A stretch of 64,000 bases of DNA from Alphaproteobacteria bacterium (lineage in GTDB: Bacteria; Pseudomonadota; Alphaproteobacteria; Caulobacterales; Maricaulaceae): NCBI GenBank assembly GCA_016124675.1, contig WGNG01000004.1, forward strand, positions 62,001-126,000, in the 5' to 3' direction. A program made the translations under genes and the position numbers. The notes below the pieces were generated by a model. That model searched no databases. It saw nothing but the letters and a program-made list of their open reading frames with translations, and was not told the DNA's origin. Below, piece by piece: positions 34,584-42,998 of this stretch. Numbering within the stretch: the first letter of the stretch is position 1; each line of letters begins with the position of its first letter.

Positions 34584-35033
34584 TCACTCGGACGGTGCAG
34601 GCAGAGCCGGGATCAGCACCACGTTGAAATCGCCCCATTCGCCGTCAATGCGGGCATTGGCCAGGGTGCGGTAATCGGGATCCTCCCAGAAATCGCGCGC
34701 CGACTGCATGTCCGGCCAGCGGCTGAGCACGATGGACTGAAAGCCGGTCTCGCCCTCCAGCGTCTCGACCTCGCCGGTGACTGCCATATAGCGGCCGCCA
34801 TGGCGCTCATACAGCGCAGGGAGGCCGGGCATATAGCCGGAGAAGAAGGCCGGGCGGTCATGGACCGTGCCCATCACGATCATGTAGGCGCCGTCCGGCA
34901 GCGGCGCGGCGGGTTCGGCCGCCGAGGCGGAGGAGGCGCCGGCGAACACATGGCCCTTGCCCAGCACCAGCCCCAGCGCCAGGCCGGCCACGCCGGCCCC
35001 GGCGGCGATCATAACGCTTCGCATCACGCTCAT
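34584..35033 (-). CDS. Exported DUF1330 family protein
   Basis: GAYMIVMGTVHDRPAFFSGYMPGLPALYERHGGRYMAVTGEVETLEG...SIVLSRWPDMQSARDFWEDPDY. Confidence 0.8.
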   Translation of the reverse strand: MSVMRSVMIAAGAGVAGLALGLVLGKGHVFAGASSASAAEPAAPLPDGAYMIVMGTVHDRPAFFSGYMPGLPALYERHGGRYMAVTGEVETLEGETGFQSIVLSRWPDMQSARDFWEDPDYRTLANARIDGEWGDFNVVLIPALPAPSE

Positions 35034-35089
35034 GGCACACTTGCTCCCTCTGTCTGGTCCGGCGACCATGCCCCGGAGAGGGGGCTGCT

Positions 35090-35107
35090 GAAAAGATATA
35101 TCTTTTC
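35090..35107. promoter_or_regulatory. Perfect 18-bp AT-rich palindrome (putative operator)
   Basis: GAAAAGATATATCTTTTC in the divergent region between DUF1330 (-) and DUF1838 (+). Confidence 0.6.
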
Positions 35108-35199
35108 CATTCCCTCTTGCGCCGGTCTTGCTATCCTTGTCCGGACACGTGGCGGGACTCAAGGCGCTCGCGGCACACCGCAGGGAGGCATTGCGCATC

Positions 35200-36003
35200 A
35201 TGGTTATCAGACTGCTTGCGACGTTCGGCCTGATGGCCGTTGCGCTGAGCTGGAGTGCGGCGGCGTCAGCCGAGGAGACCGGCGAGTTCAAGCAGGAGAT
35301 TTTCGATACCTGGATCGAGGCGCGCGCAGGCACCGGCGCGCCGGTTTACTGGTATTCCACCGGCACGGTGCGCGCCTATCCGTCCGGCGAGCTTCTGTAC
35401 ACGATGGAAGGGTTTGATACGGCGGTGGCCTACCGGCCCGAGGGGCGCGGCGCCCCCATCGCCCACCAATATGGCCGCAAGATATTCATCTATCGCGACC
35501 CGGCCACCGGCGAGGTGGCGCGCGAGGCGGGCGGCATGGTCATCGACCCCATCGCCTATCCGTACCAGTTCATCGAGTATCGCCTGGAGGAGGGCGACGT
35601 CATCGCCGTGGTCGAACAGGGCTCGGGCGGGCGCATCCAGTCCATCGAGGCCGAGCCGATGAGCTGGCGGCGCCTCGGCGACACCTACATCTTCACCGCG
35701 CCGCTATTTCTCGACTTTGCGATCCCGGGGACCGACCGGCGGATCGAGGCGTGGGAGAATTATGACTTCTTCATCCAGCCCGAAGGCGTGGAGCGGCGCC
35801 ACCAGCTGAGCTGGGCGCGCATTGGCCGCATGCCGCCCTGGGCGGGCGGGCAGATGGCGGTGCTGCATCTCGTCAACTGGCGGGTGGACACCTATGAGGA
35901 GCTGCCCGCTTCCATTCGTGAGTATGTCGAGGCCGAAGCGCCGCTCTGGCTGTCGCCGCCGGCTGATCTCGCCGCCATACGCGCGCTGCAAGAAAGGGAG
36001 TGA
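35200..36003 (+). CDS. Exported DUF1838 family protein
   Basis: Signal peptide; WYSTGTVRAYPSGELLYTMEGFDTAVA ... EAWENYDFFIQPEGVERRHQLSWARIGRMPPWAGG. Confidence 0.75.
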   Translation: MVIRLLATFGLMAVALSWSAAASAEETGEFKQEIFDTWIEARAGTGAPVYWYSTGTVRAYPSGELLYTMEGFDTAVAYRPEGRGAPIAHQYGRKIFIYRDPATGEVAREAGGMVIDPIAYPYQFIEYRLEEGDVIAVVEQGSGGRIQSIEAEPMSWRRLGDTYIFTAPLFLDFAIPGTDRRIEAWENYDFFIQPEGVERRHQLSWARIGRMPPWAGGQMAVLHLVNWRVDTYEELPASIREYVEAEAPLWLSPPADLAAIRALQERE

Positions 36004-37208
36004 CCGCCATGGGCACAGACATCGACCGCCGCCGCCTGTTTTATGCCGCCGCTGCGTTGAGCGCACTGGGCGCGGCCGGGGCGAGCGTACCTGCGCTGGC
36101 GCGCGTCCGGGACGAAACACAGGATGGGCCGAGCCCGCTGCCCGACCGGGGCCTGGACCCCGGCGTGCCGGCAGATGGCGATTACGCCAGGGTGGAGCTT
36201 GCCAAACCCGTCGTGACGCTGGGCGTGGTGCAGAGCCGGGTGCGCGGCGTCGACGCCTCCACGGACCGCACCGCGCGACGGGCCCGGGCCGATAATCTCA
36301 ACCACATGCTCGATCTGATCGATGCGAGCTTCGGCTGGGGCGGGCCAAAGGACATATTGTTCTTCCACGAGTTTCCCATCACCGGCTACCGGGCGAGCTG
36401 GGGCCGGGCGGACACGCTGCGCGCAGCCATCGAGATTCCCGGCGAGGAGACCGAGGCCATCGCGCGCAAGGCGCGCCAGTATAATTGCTGGATCGTGTTC
36501 GGCTCCTATGTGCGCGATGACAGCTGGCCCAACCATGTCCTGTCCATCACCAGCGTCATGGACAATACCGGAACCATCGTCGACAAGCACTGGAAAGCCC
36601 GTAATATCAAGGGCCTGTTCGGGCCGGGCTTTGAGCTGTTCACCACCACGATCTATGACGTGCTGGACGAGTATATCGAGCGCTACGGGCTCGATCACGT
36701 CATGCCGGTGACCCGCACCCCGCTGGGCAATATCGTCACCAGCTCGGTCCAGCGCGAGCCGGAACTGATGCGCGCCTTCGCGATGAAGGGCGGGGAGATT
36801 TTCCTGCGCACCGCCACGGGCGGGTTCACGCAGACCGATATCGCCTCCACCAGCGTCCATAACGGCGTCTACACCGCCATCGTCAACAACGCGATCTCGC
36901 CGGGCAATCCGGGCTTTTTTGAAGATCCGGGCAATTCGGGCGGTTCGACCATTTATGGCCCTGACGGCGCGGTGCTGGCGCAGGCCGGCTCGCAGTTTGA
37001 AACCATCGTCAATGCGCGCCTGCCCATGGCGCAGTTCCGCCAGCGCCACACCATCCCCTACGTCCACATGGACCTCTACCGGCCGATCTTCGACGCCTAT
37101 CGCAACCGCTTCCCGCCCAATCTGTTCACCGATTATCAGCCCACAGATACGGCGGATGCGGCGCGCTATCTCGCCAATAAAGGCGTGTGGGCGATGGACC
37201 GGCGATGA
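36000..37208 (+). CDS. Tat-signal nitrilase-superfamily (carbon-nitrogen hydrolase fold) protein
   Basis: Twin-Arg DRRRLFYAAAALSALGAAGA; LFFHEFPITGYR, VDKHWKARNIKG, GNIVTSSVQREPELMRA; Cys position appears to be Ser. Confidence 0.75.
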   Translation: MTAMGTDIDRRRLFYAAAALSALGAAGASVPALARVRDETQDGPSPLPDRGLDPGVPADGDYARVELAKPVVTLGVVQSRVRGVDASTDRTARRARADNLNHMLDLIDASFGWGGPKDILFFHEFPITGYRASWGRADTLRAAIEIPGEETEAIARKARQYNCWIVFGSYVRDDSWPNHVLSITSVMDNTGTIVDKHWKARNIKGLFGPGFELFTTTIYDVLDEYIERYGLDHVMPVTRTPLGNIVTSSVQREPELMRAFAMKGGEIFLRTATGGFTQTDIASTSVHNGVYTAIVNNAISPGNPGFFEDPGNSGGSTIYGPDGAVLAQAGSQFETIVNARLPMAQFRQRHTIPYVHMDLYRPIFDAYRNRFPPNLFTDYQPTDTADAARYLANKGVWAMDRR

Positions 37209-37897
37209 GGGGCGGGGCGGTCAGGACTGCGCTCGCCGCGCTTGCCGTGTCCGCGTGCAGCAGCGCGGTGTATGCAGGCGGCGCGCTCGCGGCCGGGCCG
37301 GACGCCGGCCTGACCGGCGAGGCGCTGGCGCGCCTGATGACCGGGCGGTTCGACAATGAAGCGCAGGCCGCCGCCGACGGCCGCACCCGCCTGCATGTCA
37401 TCCATGAGCGGGCGGCGAGCGACACGATGCAAGGCGTGCTGATCTACGCCCAGCTTCACACGGGCGGGCCGGACGGACCGGTCTACCGCCAGCGCATCTA
37501 CCAGTTCGCCGCCGCGCCGGACGCGGACGGACGCCTGCCCATGGCGGTGTGGACGCTGCACGCGCCCGAGGCGTTTGCAGATCCTGGCGAGCGGCCGGCT
37601 CGGCTGGCGGGTGTAACGCCCGGCGCGCTGGAGCGGTTTGACCCGGGCTGCGACTTCTACTGGACGGGCGGGGGTGCGCTGTATCGTGGCGCGATCGCCG
37701 ATGGCGACTGCCGGATGGACTCCCGGCGGACCGGGCGCACGCTGGTCATCACCGCCGAGTTCACGATCTCGGCGGAGCTGTTCACCCATGGCGAGGCCGG
37801 ACGATACCAGGATGACGGCGAGTACGCGTTTGCGCCCGAGGGCGGCGTCGCCAATCATTATGTCCGGGCATCGGACCCGGGCGAGCAAGGACCGTAA
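37205..37897 (+). CDS. CpcT/CpeT (phycobiliprotein chromophore lyase)-like exported protein
   Basis: LMTGRFDNEAQA, YRQRIYQF, FDPGCDFYWTGGGALYRGAIADGDCRMDSRRTGRTLVITAEFTISAELF match the CpeT pattern; ATGA overlap with upstream gene. Confidence 0.75.
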   Translation: MRGGAVRTALAALAVSACSSAVYAGGALAAGPDAGLTGEALARLMTGRFDNEAQAAADGRTRLHVIHERAASDTMQGVLIYAQLHTGGPDGPVYRQRIYQFAAAPDADGRLPMAVWTLHAPEAFADPGERPARLAGVTPGALERFDPGCDFYWTGGGALYRGAIADGDCRMDSRRTGRTLVITAEFTISAELFTHGEAGRYQDDGEYAFAPEGGVANHYVRASDPGEQGP

Positions 37898-37900
37898 GGC

Positions 37901-38599
37901 ATGACCCAGCGCTTCGAGCCGACCATGATCCGCTCTGACCAGACGGCGCGGGAGATTTTCGAGGAAGTGCGCGCCAATCCGGCCCGTGCCCGCTTCGGCT
38001 TTGGCGAGCGGCTCGCCATCATCAATGTGGACCCGCAAAAGGCCTATACCCGCCCCGACCTGTTTCCCAGGACCGCTTATGTGACGGACCCTGACCAGCT
38101 GACCCATATCAATGCGATTTCCAAAGCCGCGCGCGCCAGGGGCCTGCCGGTTGTCTGGACCCATGTCGCCTATATGGAGAATGCCGCCGATGCGGGCGTG
38201 TGGGGCACGCGCACCGACACGCCCGACAGTTTGCAGAACATCAGATACGGCTCGGACCGGCACGCCTTTGATGACCGGGTGGAGATCGATGCGCGTGTGG
38301 ACGCCGTCTACACCAAGCGCATGCCGAGCGCGTTCTTCGAAACCCCGCTGGCGAGCTTTCTGACCTGGCATCGCGTGGACACGGTGGTGGTCACGGGCGG
38401 GTCGACCTCTGGCTGCGTGCGCGCCACGGCGGTGGACGCGCTGTCCCATGGCTACCGCACCATCGTTCCTATCGAGTGCGTGGCCGACAAGCATGAAAGC
38501 TATCACTTCGCCAACCTCACCGACCTGCTGATCAAATACGCCGACGTGGTGGCGGTGCAGGAGGTGTATGAGTGGATCGAGGGGTATGGGGGTTCCTAG
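37901..38599 (+). CDS. Isochorismatase-like cysteine hydrolase (N-carbamoyl amidohydrolase type)
   Basis: IINVDPQKAYT (Asp), YTKRMPSAFFETPL (Lys), VVVTGGSTSGCVRATAVDAL (Cys): intact triad. Confidence 0.88.
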   Translation: MTQRFEPTMIRSDQTAREIFEEVRANPARARFGFGERLAIINVDPQKAYTRPDLFPRTAYVTDPDQLTHINAISKAARARGLPVVWTHVAYMENAADAGVWGTRTDTPDSLQNIRYGSDRHAFDDRVEIDARVDAVYTKRMPSAFFETPLASFLTWHRVDTVVVTGGSTSGCVRATAVDALSHGYRTIVPIECVADKHESYHFANLTDLLIKYADVVAVQEVYEWIEGYGGS

Positions 38600-38610
38600 G
38601 CGCAAGTCTT

Positions 38611-38769
38611 TTTTCCCTCCCCCTTGTGGGGAGGGTGGCTGAGCGTCAGCGAAGCCGGGTGGGGGCGCCGCCGAAGGCGGCAGCTCAAAATCCTGCACCG
38701 GGCGGCGCCTCACCCCACCCGACCCGGGGCTTCGCCCCGGCCCACCCTCCCCATCAAGGGGAGGGAAAA
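38611..38769. repeat. Dispersed palindromic intergenic repeat (family A)
   Basis: TTTTCCCTCCCCCTTGTGGGGAGGGTGGCTGAGCG..GGCGGCGCCTCACCCCACCC..CCACCCTCCCCATCAAGGGGAGGGAAAA; homologous to 62591-62712 and 53255-53350. Confidence 0.85.
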
Positions 38770-38806
38770 GGAGCCTGATGGCGCTGAAGATTGAGCAAAT
38801 TGAGCG

Positions 38807-39769
38807 ATGACCGAAGTCATGACCACCGACCCCAATCTCTACGACTACAACCCGTATTCAGGCCGCCCGAAAATCGAATGGCCGGGCGGCAAAAAGCTCG
38901 CCTTCTGGATCGCGCCCAATATCGAGTTCTATGAATTCAATCCGCCGAAAAATCCCAAACGCCCCGGCTGGCCAAGGCCTTCACCGGATGTGACGGCCTA
39001 TTCCCAGCGCGACTATGGCAATAGGGTCGGGCATTGGCGCCTGATGGAGATGATGGACCGGCACGGGCTGCGCGGCTCGGTGAGCCTGAACGTCGCCATG
39101 TGCGACCACTGCCCGGAAATCATCGAGGCGTGCGCGGCGCGCGGCTGGGAGTTCTTCTCCCACGGCATTTACAACACGCGCTTCTCCTATGAGATGGATG
39201 AGGCGCAGGAGCGCGCAGTGCTGGCCGATTCCATCGCCACGGTGGAGGCCGCCACCGGCCAGCGCATTCGCGGCTATCTGGCGCCGGCGCTGACTCATAC
39301 GACCCGGACGCTGGACCTGATCGCCGAGCACGACTTCTGGTACACTTGCGATCTGTTCCAGGATGACCAGCCCCAGCCGGTGAAAACGAAAACCGGCAGG
39401 CTCGTCTCCATGCCCTATTCGCTGGAGGTCAATGATGTCATCACCTACGGCCAGCTGGCCATGGACCCGTGGCGCTATGCCGATGTGCTCAAACGCCAGT
39501 TCGACCAGCTGCTGCGCGAGGGCGAGGAGAGCGGCACGGTGATGTGCGTCCCGCTGCACGCCTATCTGGTCAGCCAGCCGCACAGGCTGCGGGCGTTTGA
39601 AACCGCGCTGGCCCACATCACCGGCCACACGGACGATGTCTGGTTCGCCACCGCGCAGGAGATCGCCGGGCATTTCCGCGAGCATTACTGGGACGCGGTG
39701 CAGGACGATCTCGACGAGAAGGGCCTTAAGGCCGGCGGAACAGCGTTCGACGCGTGGGCCGCGCCATGA
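38807..39769 (+). CDS. Polysaccharide deacetylase family protein (PuuE/allantoinase-like)
   Basis: AYSQRDYGNRVGHWRLMEMMDRHGLRGSVSLNVAMCDHCPEIIEACAARGWEFFSHGIYNTR. Confidence 0.85.
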   Translation: MTEVMTTDPNLYDYNPYSGRPKIEWPGGKKLAFWIAPNIEFYEFNPPKNPKRPGWPRPSPDVTAYSQRDYGNRVGHWRLMEMMDRHGLRGSVSLNVAMCDHCPEIIEACAARGWEFFSHGIYNTRFSYEMDEAQERAVLADSIATVEAATGQRIRGYLAPALTHTTRTLDLIAEHDFWYTCDLFQDDQPQPVKTKTGRLVSMPYSLEVNDVITYGQLAMDPWRYADVLKRQFDQLLREGEESGTVMCVPLHAYLVSQPHRLRAFETALAHITGHTDDVWFATAQEIAGHFREHYWDAVQDDLDEKGLKAGGTAFDAWAAP

Positions 39770-39809: not shown

Positions 39810-40097
39810 GTGTCAGCCATCACCATCCGCAAGCTGCCCGATCACGTCCATGACGCGCTGCGCAGGCGCGCCAAGGAAGAGGGAAAATCGGTGGAGGCTG
39901 TCGCGCGTGACGCGCTGGAGAAGTATGCGGGAACTCCCTCCTCGACGATGGAAACCCTCCTTGAAACCCTTGACCGCCGCCGGCGCGAGTTGGGCGTTGA
40001 GGCGATCGGGGACCGCTGGCAGGAGGAGTTTGATGACCCGGCGTTCAGCCGGGAGGTCCTCGGTCTCGACAAGGATGACGAGAAGGATGATGTGTGA
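39810..40097 (+). CDS. Ribbon-helix-helix antitoxin (FitA/VapB-like)
   Basis: MSAITIRKLPDHVHDALRRRAKEEGKSVEAVARDALEKY. Confidence 0.85.
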   Translation: MSAITIRKLPDHVHDALRRRAKEEGKSVEAVARDALEKYAGTPSSTMETLLETLDRRRRELGVEAIGDRWQEEFDDPAFSREVLGLDKDDEKDDV

Positions 40098-40501
40098 CCC
40101 GGCTTTTGCTGGACACGCATTATGTCATCTACCTTGCGGGCGATCAGGATCGCTTGAGCCGGGCCGAAGAGGCGGTGCTCGATCAGGTGGATCAGCGGCT
40201 TCTGGTCAGCGCTGTTTCGATCTGGGAAATCCGGCTCAAATGGCATGCGCGCAATCGGTTGGGACAACGCAAAGGTCCGATTTCTCCCGAAATGGCGCTC
40301 AGCATACTGAAATCCCGCACCGACCGCTTTCAGCTCGTGCCCTTGCGGGTCGAGCAGCCAACGTGCCCGCCCCTCGATCCCCCGCTCCCGCATGCCGATC
40401 CGTTCGACGAAATGTTGCTGATCCAGGCCGAGGCGGAAGGCGCTGTCCTGCTCAGCCGCGACCGCAAACTCGTTGGTCATCGGCTGGTGATGTCCGTCTA
40501 G
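40094..40501 (+). CDS. vapC: PIN-domain toxin (VapC family)
   Basis: LLLDTHYVIYLAG, SAVSIWEIRLKW, LPHADPFDEMLLIQAEAEGAVLLSRDRKL; overlaps antitoxin stop. Confidence 0.88.
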   Translation: MTRLLLDTHYVIYLAGDQDRLSRAEEAVLDQVDQRLLVSAVSIWEIRLKWHARNRLGQRKGPISPEMALSILKSRTDRFQLVPLRVEQPTCPPLDPPLPHADPFDEMLLIQAEAEGAVLLSRDRKLVGHRLVMSV

Positions 40502-40550: not shown

Positions 40551-41474
40551 ATGAGCCTCGATCCCGCCTATCTCGAATACCCCAGGCGCGGCTATGGCCA
40601 GGACATGGAGCGCTATGACTGGGCGCTGGCGAAGGATCGCGCGCCGGTGGCGCTGGCGTCAGGCGCTCAGGTGGCGGCGATGATCGTGGTGGCGTGCGAG
40701 CATCATGTCATCGATCCGAATAAATCGCCCTTCGCCCATCCCCATGGAATGGTTACGCCTTTTCCGGACTTGCGCCATTTCACCTCGCGTGATTACGGCA
40801 ACCGGGTGGGGGTGTTCCGCATTCTCAAGGCGCTGCGCGAGCGTGGACTCAGGGCGACGTTCGCCGTGTCGGCGGCGCTTCTATCCCGCGCGGCGCCGTT
40901 GATAGATGCGATTTTGAATGATGGACACGAGATCGCCGCGGCGGGCCTGCATGGCGATTCTATCCATCATTCAGGTGACGAAAAAGACGCTGAGCGTGAC
41001 AAGATCGGCCATATTCGGGTCATGTTCGAGGCCGCTGGGGTCATCCCGGTGACCTGGATGTCTCCCGCCCGTCAGCAGAGCTTCAACACGCCCGACCTGC
41101 TCACCGAAGCCGGCTTCACCCGGGTGCTCGACTGGGAGAGCGACAGCGTTCCGCTCAGTCTTCGCACCGCGCACGGCCCGCTCGCCGCCCTGCCGCTCCT
41201 CAACGAGCTGGAGGATTTCAAACTGCTGGTGGAGCGCAAGCAGGAGGAGGCGTCCTGGGTGCGCCAGATTCTCGAAGCGAAGGATTACCTCAAGAGCGAG
41301 CACGCGGCACGCGGCGCGTCGGTGCTGGGCTTTCAGCTCACCCCGTTCGTGGCCGGTCAACCCTTCCGCATCACCGCGCTGGAAGCGCTGCTGGATGGCC
41401 TCGCCGGGGATGAGGCGGTTTGGTGTGCGGGGGCCGATGAGATTGCCGGTGCGTTCGAGGGAGCGGGCCCGTGA
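40551..41474 (+). CDS. Polysaccharide deacetylase family protein (second PuuE/NodB-like paralog)
   Basis: HFTSRDYGNRVGVFRILKALRERGLRATFAVSAALL...GHEIAAAGLHGDSIHH. Confidence 0.82.
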   Translation: MSLDPAYLEYPRRGYGQDMERYDWALAKDRAPVALASGAQVAAMIVVACEHHVIDPNKSPFAHPHGMVTPFPDLRHFTSRDYGNRVGVFRILKALRERGLRATFAVSAALLSRAAPLIDAILNDGHEIAAAGLHGDSIHHSGDEKDAERDKIGHIRVMFEAAGVIPVTWMSPARQQSFNTPDLLTEAGFTRVLDWESDSVPLSLRTAHGPLAALPLLNELEDFKLLVERKQEEASWVRQILEAKDYLKSEHAARGASVLGFQLTPFVAGQPFRITALEALLDGLAGDEAVWCAGADEIAGAFEGAGP

Positions 41475-41872
41475 GCGCCGTGCGCGGATGGGAGGATCTG
41501 CGCGCCTTTGCGCTGGCGCTGGACCTGCCGGGGGTGGAGGACAGCGTGTCCTGGGGCAATCCGGGGCTGAAAGCCCACGGCAAGCTGTGGACCTGGTGGG
41601 CGCCCCGGCAATACGCCGACGCGCCGGTTTTCAAGGTGGCGCGCGAGGAGCAGGCGTTTCTGCTCGAGGCCGCGCCGGCGGTGTTCTTCATCACCGATCA
41701 TCACAAGCCCCACGGTCTCATCCTGATGCGCCCCGAGGCGTTCGACGCCGGCTGGGCGCGCAGCAATCTGTTCAAGGTCTGGCGCCGGCAGGCGCCGAGG
41801 CGCTTCCTGAAAGACTGGGATGAGGCCAATCGCGAGCGATTGCAGGAGTTCGGCCATGACGACACGGCGTGA
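41471..41872 (+). CDS. MmcQ/YjbR family protein
   Basis: FALALDLPGVEDSVSWGNPGLKAHGKLWTWWAP...AFLLEAAPAVFFITDHH. Confidence 0.82.
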   Translation: MSAVRGWEDLRAFALALDLPGVEDSVSWGNPGLKAHGKLWTWWAPRQYADAPVFKVAREEQAFLLEAAPAVFFITDHHKPHGLILMRPEAFDAGWARSNLFKVWRRQAPRRFLKDWDEANRERLQEFGHDDTA

Positions 41873-42998
41873 TCTGGTCACGGGCGCAGGCGCGCTGGCG
41901 CTCTCTGCGGCCGCTGCGGCGGCCTTGCCCGGCGCAGCGCGCGGGCAGGCGCCCGATCCGCGCTATTCGGCCTGCGCGCTGCAGGTCGTGTGCGATGCCG
42001 TCAATCAGGATGCGAGCGTGGAGGCGGCGCGCGCGCGCATGATGGCCTCGATCGCGCGCATTGGCGGTCAGATCGCGGCGTCCAAGGGTTTCCTGCGCAC
42101 CTTCAACGGAACCGAGCTCAAGCTCGTCTGCCTGCCCGAATACTTCCTTACCGGTTTTCCGCTGCGCGAAAGCCGCGAGGAATGGAAGGCCAAGGCGGCG
42201 CTCGACATTGGCGGCGCCGAATATGAGGCGCTGGCGGCGCTGGCGCAGCGTCATGGCGTGTATCTGGGCGGCAACGCCTATGAGAACGACGAGAACTTCC
42301 CGCAGCTCTACTTCCAGACCAACTTCCTGATCGCCCCAAGTGGCGAGACCGTGCTGCGCTACCGGCGCATGATCTCGCTCTACACGCCCACGCCCTTTGA
42401 TGTCTGGGACCGGTATCTCGACATTTACGGGTATGACGCGGTGTTTCCCGTGGCGCGCACCGAGCTTGGCGTGATCGGCTCGATTGCGTCGGAAGAGATA
42501 CTGTATCCCGAGATCGCGCGCATGCAGGCGCTCAAGGGCGCTGAAATCTTCCTCCACCCGACCTCGGAGGTCGGCTCGCCCCAGCTCACCGTCAAGGACC
42601 TCGCCAAGCGCGCGCGGGCCATCGAGAACATGGCCTATGTGGTGTCAGCCAACTCCGCAGAAATCACCGGCACGCCGGTGCCGTCCGCGTCCACCGACGC
42701 CATGAGCAAGATCGTCGACTGGAACGGGCGAGTGCTGGCCGAGGCGGGTCCGGGCGAGAGCCTCAACGCCAATGCGATCCTGGACCTGCCTGCCCTGCGC
42801 GCGGCCCGCGACCGCACCGGCATGAGCAATCTGCTCACCCGCCTGCCGCTGGCGGCGTTTGCGCCGGGCTATGAGAGCGGCGTCTCTCAGGAACCCAACG
42901 CCATGGCGGATGGGCGGATGCTGACGCAAGGCGAGGCGATAGAGCGCCAGCGGGCCCGGATTGAGGCTTTACGCGAGGCCGGGATGTTCGGCGGGTAA
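41856..42998 (+). CDS. Tat-signal nitrilase-superfamily protein (second paralog)
   Basis: TTRRDLVTGAGALALSAAAAAALPGAARGQA; CLPEYFLTGFP, RYRRMISLY, GSIASEEILYPEIARMQALKGAEIFLHPTSE; Cys position appears Ser, Lys position appears Arg. Confidence 0.8.
   Translation: MTTRRDLVTGAGALALSAAAAAALPGAARGQAPDPRYSACALQVVCDAVNQDASVEAARARMMASIARIGGQIAASKGFLRTFNGTELKLVCLPEYFLTGFPLRESREEWKAKAALDIGGAEYEALAALAQRHGVYLGGNAYENDENFPQLYFQTNFLIAPSGETVLRYRRMISLYTPTPFDVWDRYLDIYGYDAVFPVARTELGVIGSIASEEILYPEIARMQALKGAEIFLHPTSEVGSPQLTVKDLAKRARAIENMAYVVSANSAEITGTPVPSASTDAMSKIVDWNGRVLAEAGPGESLNANAILDLPALRAARDRTGMSNLLTRLPLAAFAPGYESGVSQEPNAMADGRMLTQGEAIERQRARIEALREAGMFGG

Follow-up and report, generated by a model that had tools for sequence, protein, structure and literature searches.

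Gene Organization at the CpeT Locus

The analysed stretch, referred to here as the window, covers 64,000 nucleotides of contig WGNG01000004.1 from a marine-type, Oceanicaulis-like alphaproteobacterium (genome 2.9 Mb, 99.95%-complete). It contains a run of plus-strand genes that includes a gene for a CpeT/CpcT-family protein (PF06206), which carries the lipobox LAVSAC and is predicted to be exported, probably as a lipoprotein (37205..37897, +). The run starts with a DUF1838-related protein carrying a signal peptide (35200..36003, +; PF08894, 26.5 bits against a cut-off of 25), whose gene overlaps by 4 bases with that of a Tat-signal CN_hydrolase-fold protein, termed CN1 (36000..37208, +; PF00795). 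The CpeT gene is followed by an isochorismatase-fold amidohydrolase (37901..38599, +; PF00857) and by two PuuE-like hydrolases of the polysaccharide-deacetylase fold, PuuE1 (38807..39769, +), which by homology would be of the cyclic ureide/imide type, and PuuE2 (40551..41474, +; PF01522), which falls below the equivalog cut-off of TIGR03212. A second Tat-signal CN_hydrolase-fold protein, CN2 (41820..42998, +), is separated from PuuE2 by a small ORF, and a DUF1330 gene (34584..35333, −; PF07045, 59 bits), a type also found near CpeT in several of the islands described below, is arranged divergently at the upstream end.

The order DUF1838, CpeT, isochorismatase, PuuE-like, PuuE-like is conserved in the window and in four other genomes (G138, G173, G063 and G128), and the nearest named relative, an Oceanicaulis MAG whose CpeT protein is 65% identical, has the same gene order except for CN1. 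The two PuuE-like genes are adjacent at the loci L003, L046, L047 and L050, while in the window a toxin-antitoxin-like pair has been inserted between them (39810-40501, +), consisting of a ribbon-helix-helix-like small ORF that overlaps a PIN-like ORF and has a VapBC-type look. The 207-base gap between the isochorismatase gene and PuuE1 (38600-38806) holds a GC-rich palindromic repeat, CCCTCCCC...GGGGAGGG, which resembles a dispersed intergenic repeat.

The original prediction gave weight to translational coupling between the CpeT gene and a Tat nitrilase-fold gene. The coupling itself is real, as CN1 ends at 37208 in a 4-base ATGA overlap, but CN1 is not a conserved neighbor: of the five loci, only those of the window and G128 have it between DUF1838 and CpeT, and G138, G173 and G063 lack it there. 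Neither CN protein has the complete Glu-Lys-Cys triad of nitrilases and CN_hydrolases; in the alignment, CN1 keeps Glu and Lys and has the catalytic Cys changed to Ser, and CN2 has both Cys replaced by Ser and Lys replaced by Arg. The same Ser occupies the catalytic Cys position in all CN1/CN2 homologs with a readable site, including those from other genomes. Because of this replacement CN1 is unlikely to act as an ordinary nitrilase or amidase; neither protein is a standard nitrilase, and both may be ligand-binding or Ser-based. With CN1 absent in 3/4 orthologous loci and its catalytic Cys lost, we rejected the nitrilase coupling as the central link of the cluster.

The hydrolases downstream of CpeT have recognizable relatives. 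In the isochorismatase-fold protein the D/K/C catalytic residues are visible (VDPQK, TKRMPS, TSGC), and its nearest PDB entries are the N-carbamoylsarcosine amidohydrolases 26st and 1nba, with further matches to 3ot4 and to 3uao, which we take to be the maleamate amidase NicF. PuuE1, which has orthologs of 72-95% identity in many Caulobacterales, is nearest to the PuuE allantoinases 3cl6 and 1z7a. PuuE allantoinase is thus the nearest characterized relative of the two PuuE-like genes, which differ from it in forming a tandem pair with other neighbors and in scoring below the equivalog cut-off (for PuuE1, 123.7 bits against 424.6 in NCBIfam TIGR03212). These similarities would suit a salvage of ureide- or hydantoin-type nitrogen, in which the PuuE-like and N-carbamoyl-amino-acid amidohydrolase-like enzymes break down rings similar to allantoin or hydantoin, with CpeT only loosely associated as a passenger. 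This explanation seems to us improbable, since CpeT sits inside the unit in 5/5 close loci and co-occurs with its partners across 13 genera, the TonB receptors, lipoproteins and genes for CoA-linked use of methyl-branched diacids found in related loci would be superfluous for purine salvage, and PuuE1 stays so far below the allantoinase threshold (124 vs. 425).

A CpeT-Family Protein in an Unusual Setting

The ORF runs exactly from 37205 to 37897, from ATG to TAA, encodes 230 amino acids, and contains every one of the CpeT motifs quoted in the original prediction. That prediction had named two results that would speak against it, the lack of a significant CpeT match and a structure without the lipocalin-like bilin-binding barrel. 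On the first point, the protein matches PF06206 with an E-value of 5.9e-20 and 72.3 bits, far over the gathering cut-off of 21, along residues 41-195 (profile positions 2-156 of 181). When the single sequence was used in a phmmer search of the PDB, the sole match was CpcT (4o4o, E 2e-4), whereas a profile of 44 relatives also matched Arabidopsis CRL (6lix, E 6e-16) and PhiCpeT (5hi8). The latter two are outside the 44-sequence alignment, while the match of the profile to 4o4o arises by construction, as CpcT itself is among the aligned sequences. Within this alignment Cys149 and Cys169 are invariant (44/44, CpcT included), Arg97 and Arg95 are conserved at 91% and 82%, and Y94-R95-x-R97 aligns with Y65-R66-x-R68 of the CpcT chain, so that the window protein has the family-wide Cys pair and YRxR positions. 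On the second point, a structure prediction from the single sequence reached a pLDDT of only 38.5; a template-free AF2 model from a two-sequence alignment, still of low confidence (mean pLDDT 52.5), had as its only clear fold matches, in the top three places, 4o4s (CpcT with PCB), 4o4o and 6lix.

On this evidence the product is a member of PF06206 that differs from the known members in location and setting. With the phycobiliprotein lyases CpcT (Nostoc) and CpeT (4o4o/4o4s) it shares a family score far above the cut-off, the invariant Cys pair, the YRxR region and, in the low-confidence model, the best fold match; it differs from them in reading as an exported lipoprotein, in lacking a phycobiliprotein partner and in standing in a catabolic neighborhood. 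Arabidopsis CRL (CRUMPLED LEAF), the third structural match of the same model, is a precedent for CpeT-fold proteins outside phycobilisomes, although it is a eukaryotic protein of the plastid outer envelope and has no catabolic gene cluster. The cyanophage protein PhiCpeT belongs to the common fold family but is phage-borne and serves the infection of a phycobilisome-bearing host; among the viral contigs, phages and plasmids searched, we found no close relative.

The family is very divergent (mean column identity 18%), and at two positions of CpcT that we take to be ligand contacts, E54 and D163, the window protein has Q and E, respectively. Both substitutions are points against a bilin ligand. 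Together with the divergence, they are what might be expected if the barrel had kept its fold and changed its specificity, so that the protein would serve an exported, TonB-linked catabolic role with a ligand other than a tetrapyrrole, such as another N-heterocycle, an aromatic compound or a terpenoid. To our knowledge, all characterized CpeT-fold proteins handle bilins, which weighs on the other side, and we come back to this alternative with the gene content of the islands.

Export and the Missing Bilin Partners

The N-terminus of the protein, MRGGAVRTALAALAVSAC followed by SS, reads as a lipoprotein signal, which makes more specific the probable signal peptide noted in the original prediction. 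The ortholog at L003 has the lipobox LALSAC and that of G173 LAAC, and a signal peptide or lipobox can be read in nearly all proteobacterial CpeTs with a readable N-terminus. Judged from these signals, the protein is likely to be exported and is probably a lipoprotein anchored in the outer membrane, and because nearly all examined proteobacterial relatives also look exported, it would not be a cytosolic phycobiliprotein lyase.

The original prediction saw a non-photosynthetic context in the window, and this holds for the host genome as a whole, which at 99.95% completeness gave no match to phycobilisome proteins (PF00502), PHY phytochrome or heme oxygenase (PF01126). Since none of these was detected in the host, a bilin ligand would most likely come from outside. 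That the protein is a genuine bilin lyase attaching a chromophore to an endogenous biliprotein is what its family name and conserved Cys pair would suggest, but we consider it very improbable, given its apparent export and the absence of matches to the three families in the host. The phycobiliprotein-lyase role was accordingly rejected, as the genome encodes no PF00502 partner and the signal peptide with its lipobox does not agree with a cytosolic location. The host carries a second CpeT copy (L033), which immediately follows a TonB receptor gene and DUF1838.

Distribution and Genomic Islands

CpeT genes were found in 34 of 200 Caulobacterales genomes, often in 2-3 copies, and in far smaller fractions of the genomes sampled across the class (5/387, host counted) and across the phylum (4/399, host and one further member of the order counted). 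Among the 200 genomes of the order, 27 of the 34 with CpeT also have DUF1838 (expected 5.4) and 29 have a PuuE1 ortholog (expected 7.8), in statistics that ignore phylogeny; counted by genus, each of these partners is present in 13/15 CpeT genera. PuuE1 orthologs occur without CpeT in 17 genomes, which is a point against the bilin pathway proposed below; of 20 genomes tabulated, 13 have a PuuE-like gene no more than 5 kb away from a CpeT gene. A TonB receptor directly followed by CpeT is a frequent order, seen for the second copy of the host and in many relatives. Some CpeT genes have other neighbors: in G795, another proteobacterium, CpeT is found about 100 bases downstream of hemE, the gene for uroporphyrinogen decarboxylase (L073, 9039-10838), and one of the five CpeT matches of G491 lies among CMAS (cyclopropane-synthase-like) and flavin amine oxidase genes (L064, 7649-11519), quite a different setting.

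The adjoining receptors and the hemE neighbor in G795 could also mean that what CpeT and a TonB receptor capture is a macrocyclic tetrapyrrole, used for its iron or as a cofactor and not for carbon and nitrogen. We regard such heme or corrinoid scavenging as quite unlikely, because known families of heme uptake or cobalamin salvage were not seen in the locus maps and because iron or cofactor uptake has no need for large catabolic CoA modules.

Such modules are part of CpeT islands that extend up to ~40 kb in the stretches read (G159, G020, G144, G195, G019 and G198). Their content differs from one island to another and includes TonB receptors, DUF1838, DUF1330, MFS transporters, flavin amine oxidase, glyoxalase-fold, CMD and cupin proteins, ALDH and zinc ADH genes, GntR/UTRA regulators, class III CoA-transferases, acyl-CoA dehydrogenase, RipB-like and RipC-like proteins, a LeuC/LeuD-like dehydratase and an HMG-CoA-lyase-like protein. 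They also include HapK, a family named from prodiginine clusters, which like hemE in G795 is an oligopyrrole-related neighbor. A 192-aa family beside TonB receptors in several islands (L036, 8186-8761), with a weak DUF3598_N match, is possibly a second small-ligand-binding protein.

In G128, which belongs to the genus of the host, the ortholog of the window cluster lies ~4 kb from a block of CoA-transferase, acyl-CoA dehydrogenase, RipB-like and RipC-like genes, both within one 16-kb stretch (L050), and in G159, G144, G020 and G195 the CoA block adjoins CpeT and a PuuE-like gene. The host has its RipB-like gene (84% identity) on another contig. With its RipB-like, RipC-like and class III CoA-transferase genes the block recalls the Rip pathway of itaconate degradation (RipA-RipB-RipC), from which it differs by an extra acyl-CoA dehydrogenase, by its linkage to CpeT and PuuE, and by scores below the NCBIfam equivalog cut-offs (229 vs. 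340 bits for RipB, 236 vs. 375 for RipC). As their scores fall below such cut-offs, the substrates of PuuE1 and of the RipB-like and RipC-like proteins are uncertain.

A Possible Pathway for Tetrapyrrole Breakdown

The recurrence of the gene beside uptake receptors and ring- or amide-opening enzymes across the order suggests an uncharacterized pathway, perhaps for tetrapyrrole breakdown products. The original prediction held that CpeT may be the component of the cluster that binds the substrate, and a ligand-binding role within a cluster of enzymes is plausible. Our preferred reading, offered tentatively, is that it is an exported CpeT-fold lipoprotein that binds a small heterocyclic ligand, most likely an exogenous bilin or oligopyrrole, on behalf of a TonB-linked catabolic pathway. 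The presence of a lipoprotein of this fold beside TonB receptors would fit a function in capturing the parent pigment.

When heme, bilins and chlorophyll are oxidized, they give rise to maleimides (methyl-, methyl-ethyl- and methyl-vinyl-maleimide) and to hematinic acid (PMC7318184, PMC10343206). For such imides a PuuE-type cyclic-amide hydrolase, an isochorismatase-fold amidase and enzymes for methyl-branched di- and tricarboxylates would form a chemically coherent sequence. In the scheme that we propose, the pigment, a bilin or another oligopyrrole that stems from phytoplankton or from the breakdown of heme or chlorophyll, would be captured and handed over at the cell surface and in the periplasm by the TonB receptor and the exported CpeT and DUF1838 proteins. 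It would then be cleaved oxidatively into substituted maleimides, such as methyl-ethyl- or methyl-vinyl-maleimide and hematinic acid, by enzymes outside those named here; no ring-cleaving pigment oxygenase was identified. The imide ring would next be opened by the PuuE-like hydrolases and the remaining amide nitrogen removed by the isochorismatase-fold amidase, and the resulting methyl-branched di- or tricarboxylates could be used via the CoA-transferase, the RipB/RipC-like hydratase and lyase, the LeuCD-like dehydratase and HMG-CoA-lyase-like enzymes. That all of these form a dedicated pathway of bilin or tetrapyrrole uptake and complete catabolism, which serves as a source of carbon and nitrogen and has spread through the Caulobacterales with a CpeT-fold bilin-binding lipoprotein, maleimide imide and half-amide hydrolases and CoA-linked use of methyl-branched acids, is a more speculative proposal, and we think it rather unlikely in this full form.

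The alternative of a non-tetrapyrrole ligand has to be weighed here once more, as the ALDH, zinc ADH, glyoxalase-fold and flavin amine oxidase genes of the islands are not pigment-specific and the unrelated gene setting in G491 counts against the bilin reading too. The succession of imide-type hydrolases and methyl-branched diacid enzymes, by contrast, suits maleimides well. We see this alternative as a serious possibility and weight it nearly equal to an exogenous bilin, with ureide salvage and heme or corrinoid scavenging less likely than either it or the bilin reading.

Implications

Few nitrogenous organics that phytoplankton make are as abundant as the tetrapyrrole pigments, and we know of no bacterial pathway for their full degradation to central metabolites. 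The literature searched gave no such pathway either, and open-licence papers on DUF1838, on bilin and tetrapyrrole catabolism clusters and on CpeT outside cyanobacteria gave no description of these islands. If the bilin reading is true, the islands would supply candidate genes for full tetrapyrrole degradation, and a function could be given to CpeT proteins, DUF1838 and PuuE-like genes, which are presently annotated as lyase, unknown and polysaccharide deacetylase. Even with another ligand, the automatic name of chromophore lyase is misleading for the exported CpeTs of Proteobacteria.
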